From NCBI RefSeq assembly GCF_000003605.2, contig NW_003110974.1, positions 517,748 to 553,973 of the forward strand: a stretch of DNA of 36,226 nucleotides. Direction: 5' to 3'. Below are positions 11,016-31,745 of the stretch, piece after piece (the first letter of the stretch is position 1; each line of letters begins with the position of its first letter). Position numbers and translations under genes: made by a program. This DNA is from Saccoglossus kowalevskii (lineage: Eukaryota; Hemichordata; Enteropneusta; Harrimaniidae). The notes under the pieces were generated by a model. That model was not told where the DNA came from. It saw only the letters and a list, made by a program, of their open reading frames with translations, and searched no databases.

Positions 11016-11084
11016 CAAATGTGATGTTATGTTTATCTGTTACATGTATTGAATTATCAATAATTTTATAATGTTTTTTGTTTC

Positions 11085-11086
11085 AG
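11085..11086 (+). other. Splice acceptor before the GPCR coding exon
   Basis: A pyrimidine-rich run ending TTTTTTGTTTCAG precedes the coding exon by 43 bases. This suggests the GPCR has an upstream untranslated exon and that the ATG lies in the second exon. Confidence 0.55.
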
Positions 11087-11129
11087 ACTAAAAAGCCGTC
11101 ATTATAATACCATTTTGGTCTTGCCTATC

Positions 11130-12134
11130 ATGGAATATACTTTGTGGAACGTTACGTCGAATTACACTTTTCCCTATATGTGGGACAACGGCGAAGGTTG
11201 TGGCGTGAAACCAACAGATTATAGGAAGATACTGTTCATTGTATTGGCTATTGGAACAGTGGCGAATTCCGTTTTTCTGTTTGTGATGTACCGGGTCGAA
11301 GCGATGAGAACAGAAACGAATTTCTATCTCGTTAACGTGTCTGCCTCTGATTTGTTATTTCTATCTGTGAATGCTATCATGGAAATAGCAAGCAGCTTCT
11401 ACGAAGAAGGTGCTTTGGAAACAGAGCAAACCCTGAATATCCTGCATCTACTCAATTATATCGCATTTTGGACTGCGATCTGTACTTTGACCTTTTTTGT
11501 TTTAGTGGTCAGTATCAAGAGATTTTGGATAAGCTGCCAAACAAGTAGTCTATCGGCTCATGACAGAAAAGGTTATTGCAGTTCTTCGGTAACTTTCGGT
11601 GTATGGTTTCTTGGACTGAGTATTGGATGTACAGTTGCATTTTGTGACGTACATACTTTTACTGATGATTGGAAAGTTGGGAGACTAGTGTTTCTTTGCA
11701 TTCTTACCATAGTGCCAGTGGTCATATTATGTCTACTCCATATGATGACTGTGTATAATACAAAGAAAACTCGGAGACAGTTAAGACGACGTTCAGGCGA
11801 CAAGCAACCCCTCGACACGCGTCTCTGCTCTGCGTTGGTCATCACGTTCGTTATCTGCATCTTACCACTGTCTAGCTATTTCGTCATCGGATTATATTCT
11901 AAACTAACCGGACACTACCATTTTGTGAATGGTGAGGTACTACTCTTCTGTTTTGTAAATTATTTTGGGTTTCCATTTATCATGCATTTTATGATGTGTC
12001 CATTCATATTTAATCTCGGCAACACACAACATATCCAAGCCCTCTGCATTGCATTTGGCTTTCCTCCAAAAGAAAACGAAGAACGACCATCGGGAGAATC
12101 GGAATCTGTGGAAGAATTCAGCACGGCCATTTAG
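11130..12134 (+). CDS. Rhodopsin-like (class A) GPCR, orphan, divergent motifs
   Basis: This is a plasma-membrane seven-helix receptor of 334 residues, with all coding sequence in one exon. I start it at the ATG at 11130; an upstream in-frame TTG at 11115 is not a eukaryotic start. Two N-glycosylation sites (N7, N11) precede TM1. The helices lie at about 34-55, 64-87, 103-128, 150-171, 184-207, 232-256 and 269-296. Conserved class A landmarks are the TM1 Asn, Asp74 in TM2, Arg131, Trp159 in TM4, Pro196 in TM5 and the CILP of TM6 (243-246). Odd points: the DRY motif reads K-R-F (Asp to Lys), the TM6 Trp is Ile, the NPxxY motif reads CPFIF, and the usual Cys before TM3 is missing. The TM2 segment (NFYLVNVSASDLLFL) recalls neuropeptide receptors of the TRH/neuromedin type. 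The ligand cannot be named. The K/R-rich third loop and acidic tail are intact and there are no internal stops, so it is probably functional. Confidence 0.88.
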   Translation: MEYTLWNVTSNYTFPYMWDNGEGCGVKPTDYRKILFIVLAIGTVANSVFLFVMYRVEAMRTETNFYLVNVSASDLLFLSVNAIMEIASSFYEEGALETEQTLNILHLLNYIAFWTAICTLTFFVLVVSIKRFWISCQTSSLSAHDRKGYCSSSVTFGVWFLGLSIGCTVAFCDVHTFTDDWKVGRLVFLCILTIVPVVILCLLHMMTVYNTKKTRRQLRRRSGDKQPLDTRLCSALVITFVICILPLSSYFVIGLYSKLTGHYHFVNGEVLLFCFVNYFGFPFIMHFMMCPFIFNLGNTQHIQALCIAFGFPPKENEERPSGESESVEEFSTAI

Positions 12135-24820: not shown

Positions 24821-27800
24821 NNNNNNNNNNNNNNNNNNNNNNNNNNNNNNNNNNNNNNNNNNNNNNNNNNTGACCATGAAAAAGAATATGTTGTTAAGAC
24901 ATACAAGTCGGATACTGTAAATACAATGCACGAGATTCACTAAAGCTACTACCACTAGAACAGACAGTGAATTGAGTATGACGAAAAAGGCAAGGAAATT
25001 GACAATTCGTATAGTCATCCTAATAGTACATATCACATTCTTTTAAATTATAATGATCGAAATTTTATCATTCACTATTTATATTTCAATACAGGAAGTG
25101 CAGTCACAAATGGCAGCCAGGATGCTTTCCTTGAGTTTTCAAAATATGGCACCTCCTGATTTTGGGGAAACACCAAAGTAAATATCTAATTATTTATATC
25201 ACTACTGAAATTTGATTCTGTTTTCATGTTGTCAAAATCCATCGAGTTAACACTTAATTGATCAAGTATTATGCAGCATTTATAATCTCCTCAACACAAA
25301 TATCATGTTCATATTTACAGGTAAACCTATTTTTGCGTAATCTTAAAATATTTGTATCTAATGTTTTATGATTGATTTGAATTAAAATAAGTTGTTTGAA
25401 CTTCATGTTTGTGTTGAGATAATATACATAATGTGGTGTGCTTAAGTTATTATTACTGATCCATTCCATTCAGTTTATACATGGCCCATGAGAAAATAAC
25501 AATTTTTGTAATTAGCTAACCAAAACTGAACAGATTTTCTTTAGGGCATCTGTCATACTTGATTTTAGCATAGATGTATAAATAAACCTGTTTCAATAAC
25601 TGTAAAATACGAACTGAACAACTGCTGAAAACATAGAACATTTTGAATGTTTGTTCCTTGTAGTTCAATGTTGAAAGACCAAACTTTATAAGTTATTTCA
25701 TTCAAATTATTTATAAATAATTATACACACTTTTTAACATGAACATGCCCATAGTATAGTTTAGAAAATAAGTAGTTTTAGTTTCTTTTCAGGAAATGTT
25801 TTATTTACCGATATCTCAAGAGCTGGTGAATTAGATGAGACACGATAGTCATACAATGGGAAAATAATATCTAAAATAATTTAAATAATTGTTAACCATG
25901 TATATGGTGCCTAATTACTATAAACATGATCCTGATAAAGATACTTATATTTGGATTGTGGGTAAACAGAACTGCAGTCATATTGTAATCCTTCTTTTCT
26001 GTTCTTTTTTCCCATTTTAGTGTTATACCATGTTATTTACTTAAGAAGAATTATTCAGATCATTGCTATATGATCGAGGAAAAATTACATGGAAAGTTTG
26101 TGAAATACATGAATAATGATGGAGTGATTAACAAACTGTTGGTGGATAAAGATAATGGGAAAAAGGTTATGGCGTTTTGTCATTATGTTTACGAGGAGAA
26201 ATTTCATAAAAAGCTCGTCATAGCGGATTTACAAGGAACATATTATATAATAGATTTAGCCAGCCACTTAGATATCTATTTCCTCATTTACACAATAGGC
26301 TTGAGCTTGAGCCAGCCAAAATCACTGTGTAAATGTGTTCGTCTGTGATATATTTTGTGTTTGAGCCAAGAAAGGACTGGGCCCGACATGGCTCTAACTA
26401 TGTAAACACATCAGAGCCGAAATCACACCTACTCTAATCAGATTGGAAAATAACAAGATTAAATGAAGTGCAGTAGAACCTACGGCCATATTAAATTACC
26501 TGAATTTTTATATTTTTAAATTTGGAATTCTTTTTCATCCATATATTCTGAACTAGTTATGGGGCTATGATATGACTCGCAATGAGCCAAGTGTCAACAA
26601 GCTGTTTTATTTCTAACAAGGAGCACTTCCCAGAATTTTCAGGCAATGTTTTAATTATGTACATGTATATTGCTGTTGATAACAGGTGTTGGTCTTCAGC
26701 TAACAGATATAGCACTAGCAACCTGGGATGTTCTGGATCCGGAAAGCAAAGACTTGTGAGTAAATATTTATGTTCATTAGTGATTTTTTTTGGAAAGAGA
26801 AATGGAACAAAAAATCATGTGAACAGTGTAAATCTTGTGCCATTTAAAAAAGAAGAAAGTTGAAGTAGTATAATAATACAGTAACTATTATAACAATGTG
26901 TAGTTAAATTTAGTCTCCATTCAGATGCAGTCAAAATAACAAGGATTTATGGATTTATCTCCATTCATCCGTATCCAGCCATATCTCACACCATTCAAAC
27001 ATCGCACATACATCAGACATTATATTGAACATACGCACATACATTTCATGATCTGATTCAAAATAGTTGGATGGCAGCCATTTTTAAGGCCAAAAATGCA
27101 TCAAAATCACACTTCAACAATTCCAAAAATGGATCTTAGTGTGTGTTGACGGATTGTTTTAAAATTAGTACATTCATATGTTATTTTAGTTTTTGGATTG
27201 AATTCAATTTCCTGGAGTTGGCAAGAGTGTTGCATACGTTGGAAGCTTGCTGTTCCGGGGTGTGGCAAACCGGTCTATCTTTGGACCGTCCCACAGCCAA
27301 AACAGCCTGGAGGCTACCCACTGGGGTATCTGCCACTCTGCATTGTATTACAGGCACCAAAGTAGAATTGCTCTGCAAGGACTGACAACGATGGGGAACG
27401 CGTCCCCCCCCTCCTTGTTGAAGGAGACCACCACTGTGGTCTCGAACTTCGGGTTGCCAGTTGATATGGTGGTCCCGAATCCACTGCGGGGGTCATATTC
27501 CTTGGGCTTGTTTGTCCAATAGTTGGGCTCCCCATCCTTAGAGAGAGGCATCTGTTACCAGAGTCATAGCTGTGGTGAGTGGGTCCAAAGGGACCCCTGT
27601 CTGAGGTTGGCCAGTGAAGACCACCAGGGCAGGGCTTCTTTTGCTTGGTCCGAGATCAATACCCGCCTGTCTAGTTCCCATAGGTGAGCTCGGTGTTGTA
27701 ACAACAGATGTTGTACCGAGCGGCTGCGTAATGCGGCCTGGGGAACTACCCTTCGAACCAAGGTCATCATTCCGATGATTCGCATTAGTTCTGGAAGGAA

Positions 27801-30800
27801 CACTGAGGGAATGCTAGGTAGCTTAGAGCCAAGCAACGTGCCTGAGATGGGCGAACCAAGCCTACATCTGTGTCGAACTCTATGCCCCAAAACACCAACT
27901 GTTATGTCGGGTAGGGATGGGACTTTGTCGGATTTACTAAGAGCCCAAATCCTGTGTTAGGCTTACTTGCTTGGCTAATGACCCCTTGTTTGGGTTATGT
28001 AATAACCATTCGTCTAGGTACGGATTGATGTGTACTGAAGTTTGGTGGAGCAGCTGGACCACCTGTTCCATCCATTCTGGTGGAACGTAGGAAGCTGTGC
28101 ATAACCCAAAGGGGGGCACCCAAGATTCGAATACTTGGCATAGCTGGGCAACTCAAAGGAGACGGCAACTCACCGGGTGCATCGGTATGTGCATGCAGGC
28201 CCCGCTTAAGTCTAGTTGGGCTAGCCAGTTGAAACGCTGAATGGCGTCTCTATGCAGAGCCGATCGAGGAGCACGTACTGATTCAGTCTGCCCAGTACTG
28301 GACTTAGATTTGGTATTATGAACACATTTGAGTAGAAGCCTGGACTTAATGCCGGTCGATCTACCTTATGTATGGCGCCCTTTTTTCCAGCGAACTGTCT
28401 ACTTCCTGTCTGATTGCTTCCGCCTTGCGGGAGTCCCCTGGCAGTGCACCCAATGGGGAAGACACTGACGAGGGAGATTTCAGCGGTATCCTGTAACCAT
28501 ATTTCACCACCTGGAAAAGTCCAGGGATCGGTCACCCGCTGCCTCCAAACCGGACTACACCGACGCAATCTGTGTGCGACAGGGATATGTGGCCATGGGT
28601 TCGGCAGTTGCGAGGGTGGGTGCTCTCTTCTCCCGTGAGCTGAGTTTCCCCAAGGCCTGCGGTAGTCACTAAGTTGTAACCTGGCCACTCGCCGAACACA
28701 TGCCTGTCCCCCTGGTCGCAGAGGTAAGCGTCAAACATGCTTCCCCCGCTGCCGATGAGGAGCCACCACCTGGTCCCTTCTTCCCGGGGGGGTGCTACTC
28801 TTCGTATGAGCGCTTGCCTCCTGGCTGACTCTGGCTACCAGACATCGCCTTAGGGCATTGTGTTTTCTGTGCTTGGGGCACCCTCCGTTTACCCTTGGCA
28901 GTGGCCAACTGGCTAGCGGATTCGATCTGAACCATCTGGTTCGTTGCACTATGAAGCCCCGAGACTGCACTCGCCATATCTCCATCAAAGAGGTCTGTGT
29001 TACCGAGATGGGGATGTACCTTCTGACTCAGTTTGCCATCCAAGACTGCGTCTCGTTGCACAGTAGTAGCCCCAGCCAGGAGAGCCAGGCTGGTGTGTTC
29101 TGCCTCCGGGGTTTCAGAGTCCTGGGCGTGCAAAATAATGCACTCCAGCAACGCTGCCCTCAGGGCATTATGGGGCATCTCAGACTGAGTTGGTTAGAAT
29201 GCCCATGGAACAGGGCTGTCCCCTTTTACCCGGTTTGCCAAACAGAAATTTGTGGTACCGGGGCCCGGGGAAGGAGCTTTGGGATCTGGTTGGGGGGCGT
29301 TTTGGTCTCATCCCACACTTTGGGGTCTTATCCCGAAACCACCCTGATCGGGTAGCGCTTGGACCAGCGGAAAGTGTTGCATAAGATTTACCCCACCCTG
29401 GGGCCTTAAGCGTTACCTCCTCTGCAGCTGACCCACGTCCATCCATCAACACTGTCTGCGTGCCCTGCGCCCCACTCAGCACTCAACCGGACAGGGGGAG
29501 ACGTGTCGATGGGGTTGCTTTGGATCCTGACGCCTGTGATCCCATAAGCGTTTAAGCAACAGTAGGTGGTTACCTTAGGATCAAGGGTGGGGGTATATAC
29601 ATCGTATCACTAGGATCAATGATACTCTGCATCACCCTAACGGCGTGGCTCACTGAGTCGTTACATATGGAAGACTCTGAGGGACTGCCCATGGTACCGG
29701 CTGTATCCAACGCGAACGAACCGTCTCCTTTCAACTTAAATATGTGAGCGAGAATGTGTTCGACTGTGCGTCTCATAACAGGGTTGGTTCCCTCTGGGGA
29801 CGCCTGTGGATCGGAAGAAGGGAGTCAAAACCCACAGCGGAGCTCGAACAGGGTAAATTCCTGAGTCCGGTACCGTGCGACGAATCCTGGCTGGCTGAAA
29901 GTAAGGGGGAAGCGCAACGTGTGCCGTGACCCGAAAGCCCTGCCCGAAATCAGAGCATCCCTGCTGGTATTCAGTACCCGAGGTCCCAGAGGAGACCAGG
30001 TGCAACTAGCCTGAGCCTCGGCTTCACCCAAAAAACAGGCGACCTAGATTCGCTGATTAATGCCTACAGTTCAAAATAGTCATTTTGACTGACCGGAGTC
30101 TATGGTGGGTAATTGAACGTAGTGAATTTCACACATCAGACATTAGATCGAACATAGGCACATTTTTTTTTTTACCATCAAATCCAAAATGACTGTCTGG
30201 CAGCCATCGTGTTTAAACAAGTGCATATCCACAGAGCCATATTTCATATATGTTATGTTGATATTCCTGTGATATCTCATGCCTATAATACAAACTGTCA
30301 TTAGTAGTTTTTACCGACAATATCAAACCTGAACTCACTGGATATAATTATCTGTTATGCTAATTACACATGTATTCTGAATTTGCATTACTAATTTCAT
30401 AGGTACTTTGGATGTGATAACATTTCCAAAACTGCCATAATAACGTTTAGTAAAGAGCATTTCATGTGCAACCGTTATTGTCAACTTTTAAACTTACAAG
30501 GTAGAGTTCTTTTTATGATTGAAGAGTTAAAGTTAGTTCAATTGATTTTCAAAAAGTTAAGATTTACAATTGATTTTAAAAGAGTTGTTCTTGTAAGTTA
30601 AAGCAGCTTAAAGGACTTCCAACTTCCACCAGCTTTGTATTATCACAACTAAAAGTGCTTTGCCAGTGTATTTGAGCATAACTAGGTGTGATATATATAT
30701 TCAGATAACCAAGTATATTAAGCTATATTTGTTTTTAGTTTTGATTCCCAAGATTCAAAACTGAAACATAGATTTTGTTACATATGATGACATGAAAATA

Positions 30801-31688
30801 AAAGATAAATATCATGGGGATAGTATGAAATGATAAAATATCAGCGAAAAAATAAACAAAGATTTTTACCTTGCACCCATTTTTAAAACGCGAAAGTTGT
30901 GTAGTCTAAAAAGCTGCTTTCATGGATTCTCTCAAAAATTCTAATCTAATCCTAATCTAAGTAATCCCACAGTTCAATTGTCTAAATATATCGATAATCA
31001 ATTGCATGGTTTTATGAAAAGTTATTTATGTGATATATTAAAAAGCTTTGACTAACATTAGCTATGTTGTAAAATTGTTTTATTATACCATTTGTTGGTT
31101 CACACTAATAACTCTCTCTTAGTATTGTGTTTGGCTTCTTTCATATTATATTAAAAATCATTTGTGTTTGTATTTCTCTAGGTATTAATCCTCTTCCAGA
31201 TGATATAGACGATAATGATCAGGCAACGGTTAGTGACATTGGTGAATCTGAAGTTGTGGTAAGTGTGTTGGGGTTTCACAAAGTAAAAGAGGTTTGCAAG
31301 ACTAATTATACGTGTTGTTGGCAAATAATAATCAATTCAGTTATCTCCAGATTCAAAATTTAAATCACCGTGTTTAGTGTTTCTTTTCAACGGAAATATG
31401 CGCTTAATTTTATCAGCATTCTTTGTATTATAAAGATTTAAGTTTTAAAGTTATCATTACGTGAATTTTCCAGCCATTTATGTGAGATGTTTGCTTTAAA
31501 ATCATTTCACACCAATTCTGTAAATCTGTATTAAATGCTTAGTTAAAACTGGTTTGATGCATATTGGCTCAGATCACTTATTAGTGGTCTAAGATATTGG
31601 TAAATACCTCAAATAATATTTAACATTATTGAACTGTTGTATTTTTCAGAGCTTTCGAAGTTCTGATAAACTGATGAATGATGTCTGA
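24717..31688 (+). CDS. Alpha-kinase (vwkA/MHCK-type) domain protein, spliced
   Basis: An atypical protein kinase of the alpha-kinase family (eEF2K, TRPM7, MHCK, vwkA), which phosphorylates Ser/Thr. Exons: 24717-24820 (runs into the gap), 24871-24916, 25095-25177, 26021-26235, 26686-26755, 30403-30500, 31182-31258, 31650-31688; all joins from 24871 onward agree in phase. Landmarks in order: FKWMGSSG N-lobe entry; YVVK, the ATP-binding Lys; EVQSQMAARMLSLSF helix; YMIEEKLHGKFVKYMNNDG; AFCHYVYEE; LVIADLQG joined to VGLQLTD (the DxQG and TD catalytic motifs); FGCDN; and HFMCNRYC for zinc. An acidic tail of about 37 residues with PDDIDDND follows, then TGA. The PFA-G-x-R loop would fall in the assembly gap. 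Oddities: a GA start on the intron after 26235, loss of a loop glycine, H-x2-C instead of H-x-C, and a DIRS element inside the intron after 26755. The family call is secure; the substrate is unknown. Confidence 0.88.
24821..24870. other. Assembly gap (50 N)
   Basis: Exactly 50 Ns, probably a nominal gap length. It removes the part of the kinase N-lobe expected to hold the PFA-G-x-R nucleotide-binding loop. Confidence 0.98.
24871..24916 (+). CDS. Alpha-kinase exon: ATP-binding lysine
   Basis: The exon emerges from the gap and encodes DHEKEYVVKTYKSDT, ending at donor GTAAAT in phase 0. YVVK-x-Y is the beta-strand carrying the invariant alpha-kinase Lys that contacts ATP. Confidence 0.8.
25095..25177 (+). 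CDS. Alpha-kinase exon: N-lobe helix
   Basis: Acceptor TTTCAATACAG and donor GTAAAT enclose 83 bases (phase 0 to 2) encoding EVQSQMAARMLSLSF followed by QNMAPPDFGETP. It matches the family helix (E...Q..A...A..FN) and the PP linker before the V-P-C strand. Confidence 0.85.
26021..26235 (+). CDS. Alpha-kinase exon: central catalytic region
   Basis: 215 bases after acceptor TTTTTTCCCATTTTAG, entering in phase 2 and leaving in phase 1. It encodes VIPCYLLKKNYS, then YMIEEKLHGKFVKYMNND, AFCHYVYEE (with a zinc-ligand His) and LVIADLQ. The last codon is split after its G. The bases that follow are GAACAT, not GT. Reading through instead gives about 37 non-family residues and a stop at 26346-26348. 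Confidence 0.88.
26236..26685 (+). other. Apparent GA-AG intron
   Basis: Homology demands that DLQ-G at 26235 join directly to VGLQLTD at 26688. The acceptor (TTGATAACAG at 26685) is normal, but the first intron bases are GA. A single lost T (CAAG-GTAACA to CAAGGAACA), an assembly error, or a real non-canonical donor would all explain it. Confidence 0.7.
26686..26755 (+). CDS. Alpha-kinase exon: TD motif
   Basis: 70 bases between AACAG and the consensus donor GTGAGT, phase 1 to 2. It encodes VGLQLTDIALATWDVLDPES followed by KD. LTD with the preceding DLQGVG is the alpha-kinase catalytic signature; the usual Pro after TD is Ile here. Confidence 0.88.
27007..27087 (+). repeat. Left copy of repeat flanking the DIRS element
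   Basis: About 80 bp, matching 30130-30208 in the same orientation: CATCAGACATTA, GAACATA-GCACAT, AAAAT and GGCAGCCAT in the same order, roughly three-quarters identical. It lies about 100 bp outside the DIRS remnant. Confidence 0.65.
27200..27890 (-). pseudogene. DIRS RNase H and adjacent region, broken
   Basis: The stretch from 27890 downward reads SVFLPELMRIIGMMTLVRR, then ALRSRSVQHLLLQHRAHLWE and ALPWW, the conserved linker between RT and RNase H in DIRS elements. TDASL is followed by an in-frame TAA and then GWGAQLLD, the RNase H start. TTVVVSFNKEGG and GGTRSPSLSVLAEQ lie in two different frames, so at least one frameshift is present. A final stretch, SKDRPVCHTPEQQ, corresponds to the DLFAT..N region. 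The recombinase that should follow is absent. Confidence 0.75.
27900..28690 (-). pseudogene. DIRS reverse transcriptase, broken
   Basis: The fingers are seen at 28221-28688 (KKGAIHKVDRPALSPGFYSN, then a degenerate RPVLDLR-LN block) and the palm at about 27937-28119 (PPFGLCTASYVP and YLDEWL at 28003-28020). The catalytic YLDD reads YLDE, losing the second aspartate. The two halves are in different frames around 28120-28220. Confidence 0.78.
28730..30005 (-). pseudogene. DIRS gag-like region, broken
   Basis: Overlapping open segments at 29570-30005, 29180-29482 and 28795-29178 in changing frames. The last has the long helical, Ala/Leu/Gln-rich segment followed by a basic QPGGKRSYEE tail, typical of the nucleic-acid-binding gag-like ORF of DIRS elements. 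Assignment rests on position relative to the RT more than on motifs. Confidence 0.55.
30130..30208 (+). repeat. Right copy of repeat flanking the DIRS element
   Basis: Matches 27007-27087 in direct orientation (CATCAGACATTAGATCGAAC, GGCACAT, GGCAGCCAT). The copies are too diverged and too long to be a recent target-site duplication. Confidence 0.65.
30403..30500 (+). CDS. Alpha-kinase exon: glycine-loop remnant and zinc motif
   Basis: 98 bases between CTAATTTCATAG and GTAGAG, phase 2 to 1. It encodes YFGCDNISKTAIITF then SKEHFMCNRYCQLLNLQ. In the family this is FG-x-T-N-x-G-x-x-G-I-x-x-F then H-x-C-N-x-x-C. The C-terminal glycines are lost and the His-Cys spacing is one residue longer. The exon lies downstream of the DIRS insertion, yet its phase fits the exon at 26686, so the gene was still read as one unit. 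Confidence 0.85.
31182..31258 (+). CDS. Alpha-kinase exon: acidic C-terminal tail
   Basis: 77 bases between TGTATTTCTCTAG and the consensus donor GTAAGT, phase 1 to 0. It encodes GINPLPDDIDDNDQATVSD followed by IGESEVV, a disordered acidic tail after the kinase domain. Confidence 0.8.
31650..31688 (+). CDS. Alpha-kinase terminal exon
   Basis: After acceptor TTGTATTTTTCAG, 12 codons (SFRSSDKLMNDV) lead to TGA at 31686-31688. The frame is set by the preceding phase-0 donor. A polyadenylation signal follows 52 bases later. Confidence 0.78.
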   Translation, partial: SFRSSDKLMNDV

Positions 31689-31739: not shown

Positions 31740-31745
31740 AATAAA
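31740..31745 (+). terminator. Polyadenylation signal of the alpha-kinase gene
   Basis: AATAAA followed by a TTGTGTTCTGTT GT-rich element. It gives a short 3' UTR and supports the terminal exon call. Confidence 0.65.

Follow-up and report, generated by a model that had tools for sequence, protein, structure and literature searches.

The apparent GA-AG intron of an alpha-kinase gene in Saccoglossus kowalevskii is most probably (roughly 80%) the product of a deletion of about 19 bp that removed the splice donor in a recently inactivated, or inactivating, duplicate of a TRPM7-like alpha-kinase gene. This reading is drawn from sequence comparison between the window, the whole stretch of 36,226 nucleotides that was analyzed, and the other alpha-kinase copies of the same genome. 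It makes a plain case of gene decay out of what looked like an exotic splice site. Claims for such donors need a paralogue or relative that is read through the intron, and the nearest paralogue of the window gene, L010, shows why.

On its plus strand, the window contains the 3′ portion of an alpha-kinase gene, in which seven exons (E1–E7) were placed; a slash marks the splice junction throughout. The visible part of E1, belonging to the N-lobe, lies at 24872..24989, after a gap of 50 N (24821-24870). It reads DHEKEYVVKTYKSDTVNTMHEIH, followed by a stop at 24941-24943. Its donor at 24990, AAAAAG/GCAAGG, is of the GC type and was placed by homology with paralogues; ends of E1 at ACT/GTAAAT or ACA/GTGAAT were dropped, as the paralogues put the homologous donor at 24990. 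E2 (EVQSQMAARMLSLSFQNMAPPDFGETP; 25095..25177) has the donor AAA/GTAAAT. E3 (26021..26235, 215 nt) encodes C-lobe sequence and ends in phase 1 within DLQ-G (CAAG), at the border TACAAG/gaacatat. E4 (VGLQLTDIALATWDVLDPESKD; 26686..26755, 70 nt) is bounded by the acceptor gataacag/GTGTTG and the donor CTT/GTGAGT. The end of the kinase zinc module (FGCDNISKTAIITFSKEHFMCNRYCQLLNLQ) is found in E5 (30403..30500; donor AAG/GTAGAG), which is followed by E6 (31182..31258; donor GTG/GTAAGT) and by E7 (31650..31688) with a TGA stop and an AATAAA at 31740. These last three exons and the AATAAA extend the gene beyond its description in the initial annotation.

When joined, E2–E7 form an open frame of 193 codons plus a stop that matches Pfam Alpha_kinase (PF02816) with 91.7 bits, above the cut-off of 21.3 bits; E3 alone (26022-26235) scores 49.4 bits. 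Among solved structures, the TRPM7 kinase matches best (186 query residues, E = 2.3e-20; the query had the two E1 frames joined by X), which likens the gene to the TRPM7-type alpha-kinases. The channel part of that type was not seen upstream, in three-frame Pfam scans (stops read as X) that are insensitive, having missed a single-exon rhodopsin-like GPCR with an intact frame at 11064-12134 (Pfam 7tm_1, 50.9 bits). Ten more frames of the window were scanned against Pfam with no convincing family. Relatives sought in viral_contigs gave none, and those sought in genome_contigs gave none that was confirmed.

Of the five introns after E2–E6, four are GT-AG and intron 3 alone is GA-AG. In its present form, intron 3 (26236..26685, 450 nt) starts with GAACAT and ends with AACAG. 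A GA-starting intron at this place was the observation of the initial annotation and is borne out, with one exon ending at 26235 (CAAG) and the next beginning at 26686. The split of the catalytic motif across E3 and E4, with its phases and bases, had also been described, and the re-derived coordinates agree. For 96,000 combinations of a donor (26120-26419) with an acceptor (26420-26739), the fit to stretches of TRPM7 and eEF2K was scored. The junction 26235/26686 shares the top score of 272, and DLQGVG is kept by exactly five pairs: this junction and four register shifts. These four tied registers lie 1-2 nt off and would create AG-AC, GG-CA, AA-GG and AC-GT introns, none of them GT-AG or GC-AG. 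The top pair with a GT or GC donor and an AG acceptor scores 242 and loses DLQGVG, as the VG is gone. The Pfam Alpha_kinase score points the same way: E3 with its final G reaches 52.9 bits, the addition of E4 at 26235/26686 raises this to 69.2 bits, and nine control tails give 53.3-56.6 bits (a hand-made choice among 20 listed tails, of 26 that the window yielded). The five-pair scan and the gain at the E3–E4 join mean that the observation of a GA stands. The DLQGVG loop would be obtained only through this join or a register shift of it, and the GA junction is forced by the protein.

Two other readings of the region were rejected. Continuation of E3 into TYYIIDLAS, with intron retention as the true form, scores 56.2 bits, which falls inside the range of the nine controls. 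A resemblance of the intron start to E4, as if the intron came from an exon duplication, had a DNA score matched by 57 of 956 control stretches and a protein score matched by 56 of 1074.

A family search of the genome to which the window belongs (4830 contigs, 572 Mb) gave 12 alpha-kinase matches, including the window itself (L005). The nearest paralogue, L010, lies on the minus strand of contig C2268 (G000:C2268:310674-313898) and aligns to window positions 25941-26608 with 83.6% identity, across E3 and well into intron 3. Window 26236-26608 aligns to the L010 intron; over 26236-26600, the two agree at 318 of 350 aligned bases. At the exon border, L010 reads TAAG/GTATGTTTTTTCAAACACT-GAACATATTATATAATAG and the window CAAG/GAACATATTATATAATAG, and the alignment is near-continuous on both sides. 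The same border of L010 has also been given as TAAG/GTATGTTTTTTCAAACACTGAACATATTATATAATAG against the window's CAAG/GAACATATTATATAATAG; in a longer context, L010 has GATTTATAAG/GTATGTTTTTTCAAACACTGAACATATTATATAATAGATTTAGCC and the window GATTTACAAG/GAACATATTATATAATAGATTTAGCC. Measured against L010, the window therefore lacks about 19 bases, with the GT donor among them, at 26235..26236 (plus strand), and in L010 these 19 bases start with a good GTATGT donor. By this alignment, the change in the window is neither a T-to-A substitution (GT to GA) nor a one-base loss. The disabling one-base loss listed as an option in the initial annotation was right as to the kind of event, a loss at the donor, and wrong as to its size.

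The donor at the end of E3 is GT in all seven other copies where this exon end could be placed: GTATG in L010, GTATC in four and GTTTA in two. GA is absent from the homologous junction in each of the seven. The remaining matches among the 12 are the window itself, two without an intron here (L001, L002) and two that fall short of the junction (L011/L012). The seven copies represent about five distinct loci because two contig pairs are near-identical over the stretches compared: C88m/C2097 (L003/L004) at 98.7% and C1525m/C245m (L008/L009) at 99.3%. These pairs of short contigs are probably unmerged haplotypes. As GT stands at the end of E3 in 7/7 other copies, GT was most likely the ancestral state of the E3/intron 3 junction, as far as these paralogues tell. 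The headline claim of a GA-AG intron finds no independent support in the family, in which each of the 24 donors that could be placed in other copies is GT (E1 3, E2 5, E3 7, E4 5, E5 3, E6 1), nor in the U1 5′ ends seen, which are standard. E2 was found in five other copies, with a GT donor in each, and homologous E4 likewise in five; E6 was located in C2268m, and the homologous E1 donor in C2268p and C1525m is AAG/GTGAGT. In L001, the alpha-kinase at 1501-2088 lies in one uninterrupted 394-codon frame (DIQGSG) and is perhaps a retrocopy; a very similar piece is present on another contig (L002).

Most simply, the difference from L010 would be explained by a deletion on the branch of the window gene, perhaps with a one-base microhomology (G). 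Such a deletion of about 19 bases would take the beginning of intron 3 together with its canonical GTATGT donor, and would move an internal GAACAT against the end of the exon. The GA would then be a remnant and not an evolved donor. This would abolish or strongly reduce the recognition of intron 3 by U1. The transcript would be expected to retain intron 3, to skip, or to use a weak cryptic donor at 26329, and no normal kinase would be made. Should intron 3 be retained, translation would reach a stop after 37 codons, including the codon that spans the junction.

The window gene resembles known cases in which a small deletion takes the splice donor of a pseudogenizing duplicate, in that the paralogues keep GT, a short stretch with the donor is missing, and further lesions are present in the window copy and its relatives. 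Compared with the paralogues, E1 of the window has a 5-nt gap after 24942, which shifts the frame and brings a stop into frame; the downstream end of E1 (...SMTKK) is in a different frame from its upstream part. None of the three other copies with an identified E1 (C2268p, C1525m, C2097) has the gap. With its introns kept, its donor missing, and a gap and stop in E1, the gene has more than one inactivating lesion, as is looked for in an unprocessed pseudogene. Weighing against inactivation, a distance of about 70 nt separates the E1 lesion from the run of N, and local assembly trouble there is possible. The relatives are also broken in places. In L010, a stop replaces the Q of DLQG, and E2 and E4 gave no match at E < 1 on the same strand within a searched stretch of 20 kb; at the expected place of E4 and the adjoining intron, L010 has unrelated sequence that looks, by eye, like a LINE fragment. 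Compared with the window and C2097, 16 nt of E1 are absent from C2268p and C1525m, and the start of E3 is broken in C1456. In the C2097 copy, E1 is open and the matches to E2, E3 and E4 are free of stops.

Also counting against inactivation is the state of the rest of the gene, with its intact E2–E7 frame, four GT-AG junctions, stop and AATAAA; it is here that the window differs from such pseudogenizing duplicates. As the downstream frame is mostly intact, the inactivation would be recent or incomplete. The comparison of E3 with that of L010 gave 18.2 silent and 16.8 replacement changes (dN/dS 0.13), and E3, E5 and E6 together gave a dN/dS of 0.21, pairwise values that mostly reflect older history. 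These low ratios argue for purifying selection during much of the history of both lineages. For E5 by itself, the counts are 0 silent and 4 replacement. Given an open E2–E7 and a low dN/dS, the decay would thus be recent, or some product may still be made. The identity of the window E3 to that of L010 (83.0%) is below that of the flanking introns (93.8% and 90.9%), a difference that lies largely at silent sites; E5 is 95.8% identical. Exchange with another gene copy is one possible source of the low identity of E3.

An unlikely alternative, listed in the initial annotation as an assembly error, is that the assembly dropped bases at the border of exon 3 and intron 3, and that the real donor is a normal GT. 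The missing stretch includes a T6 run, the 50-N gap and the frame break in E1 lie 1.3-1.4 kb upstream of the border, and the assembly contains the near-identical contig pairs C88/C2097 and C1525/C245. A clean loss of 19 bases is not a typical base-calling error, however. No damage is seen in the E2–E7 frame or in the 1-kb frame of the GPCR, and the 12 family matches include no second copy of the locus with an intact donor.

It is slightly less probable still that the spliceosome continues to use AAG/GAACAT with the intact acceptor, so that a normal kinase would be made from a functional GA-AG intron. A one-step origin can be envisaged for such an intron, with equally slim prospects: deletion of the whole U1-binding part would leave a GA donor usable by the ordinary spliceosome of a genome with standard U1, for which AAG/G, an A at +3 and a good acceptor would suffice. 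The E3–E4 join at the GA does give the best kinase. The exon-end AG and the A at +3 are also shared with GA donors of the copepod Eurytemora affinis and of Oikopleura dioica (for Eurytemora, PMC5714493, PMC7072748). In E. affinis, 36 noncanonical donors with a preceding AG and an A at +3 have been described, and GA or GG starts about 10-12% of the introns of the sampled genes (PMC5714493). In humans, 14 GA donors among 222,263 introns have been counted (PMC5714493, citing Parada et al. 2014). The likeness of AAG/GAACAT to the Eurytemora donors is a weak one that is frequent by chance, and the site is ordinary apart from its +2 base (C at +4, A at +5). The window also differs from Eurytemora in that no other GA donor was found in its family and in that a variant U1 (C8 to U), as proposed for E. 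affinis (PMC7072748), was not seen among the U1 5′ ends surveyed. All 114 sightings in 30 fetched loci read ATACTTACCTG, counted only where the end was followed by GCGT[AG]GGGG, in loci that overlap and with copies that recur. For this survey, 42 of 3861 first-look candidates were scored, and 30 of these 42 were fetched as separate loci. The U1 snRNA genes lie in large tandem arrays on G000:C876, C3935 and C3461 (L013-L042), with at least 42 scored matches, many about 0.8 kb apart.

The GA 5′ splice site of FGFR1-3 likewise starts an AG-ending intron, but it requires a GT 6 nt upstream (PMC4176328). No GT occurs at that distance or within 18 nt upstream of the window site, the nearest being 19 nt away at 26217. 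In minigenes, one human ATM variant, +2T>A, yielded a functional GA donor, yet human +2T>G/A variants were spliced worse than most +2T>C variants in the same report (PMC12805630). In addition, E1 is broken independently of the donor. If the GA should prove to be used, the window locus and L010 would form a natural before-and-after pair for donor loss.

The least probable alternative, expression of a changed kinase through the in-frame GT at 26329..26330 (plus strand, TGT/GTAAAT), with 31 residues inserted between DLQG and VG, has an open extension, a kept phase and an intact frame to the stop codon in its favor, but the donor is weak (0.24 bits on a generic matrix, compared with 3.46-9.64 for the GT donors of E2 and E4–E6), the insert lowers the Pfam score from 94.5 to 79.1 bits, 139 of the window's 483 AAG sites are followed by chance by an in-frame GT of equal or better quality, which makes this one unremarkable, and the similarity of the TYYIIDLAS tail to a kinase motif is within controls.

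Downstream of the GA junction, intron 4 contains a GC-rich block at 27178-30258 (about 50-58% against about 30%) that is absent from L010. Four minus-strand frames in the block gave no Pfam match. The block looks like an inserted element, and imperfect repeats are present near its two ends, at 27007-27081 and 30130-30207.
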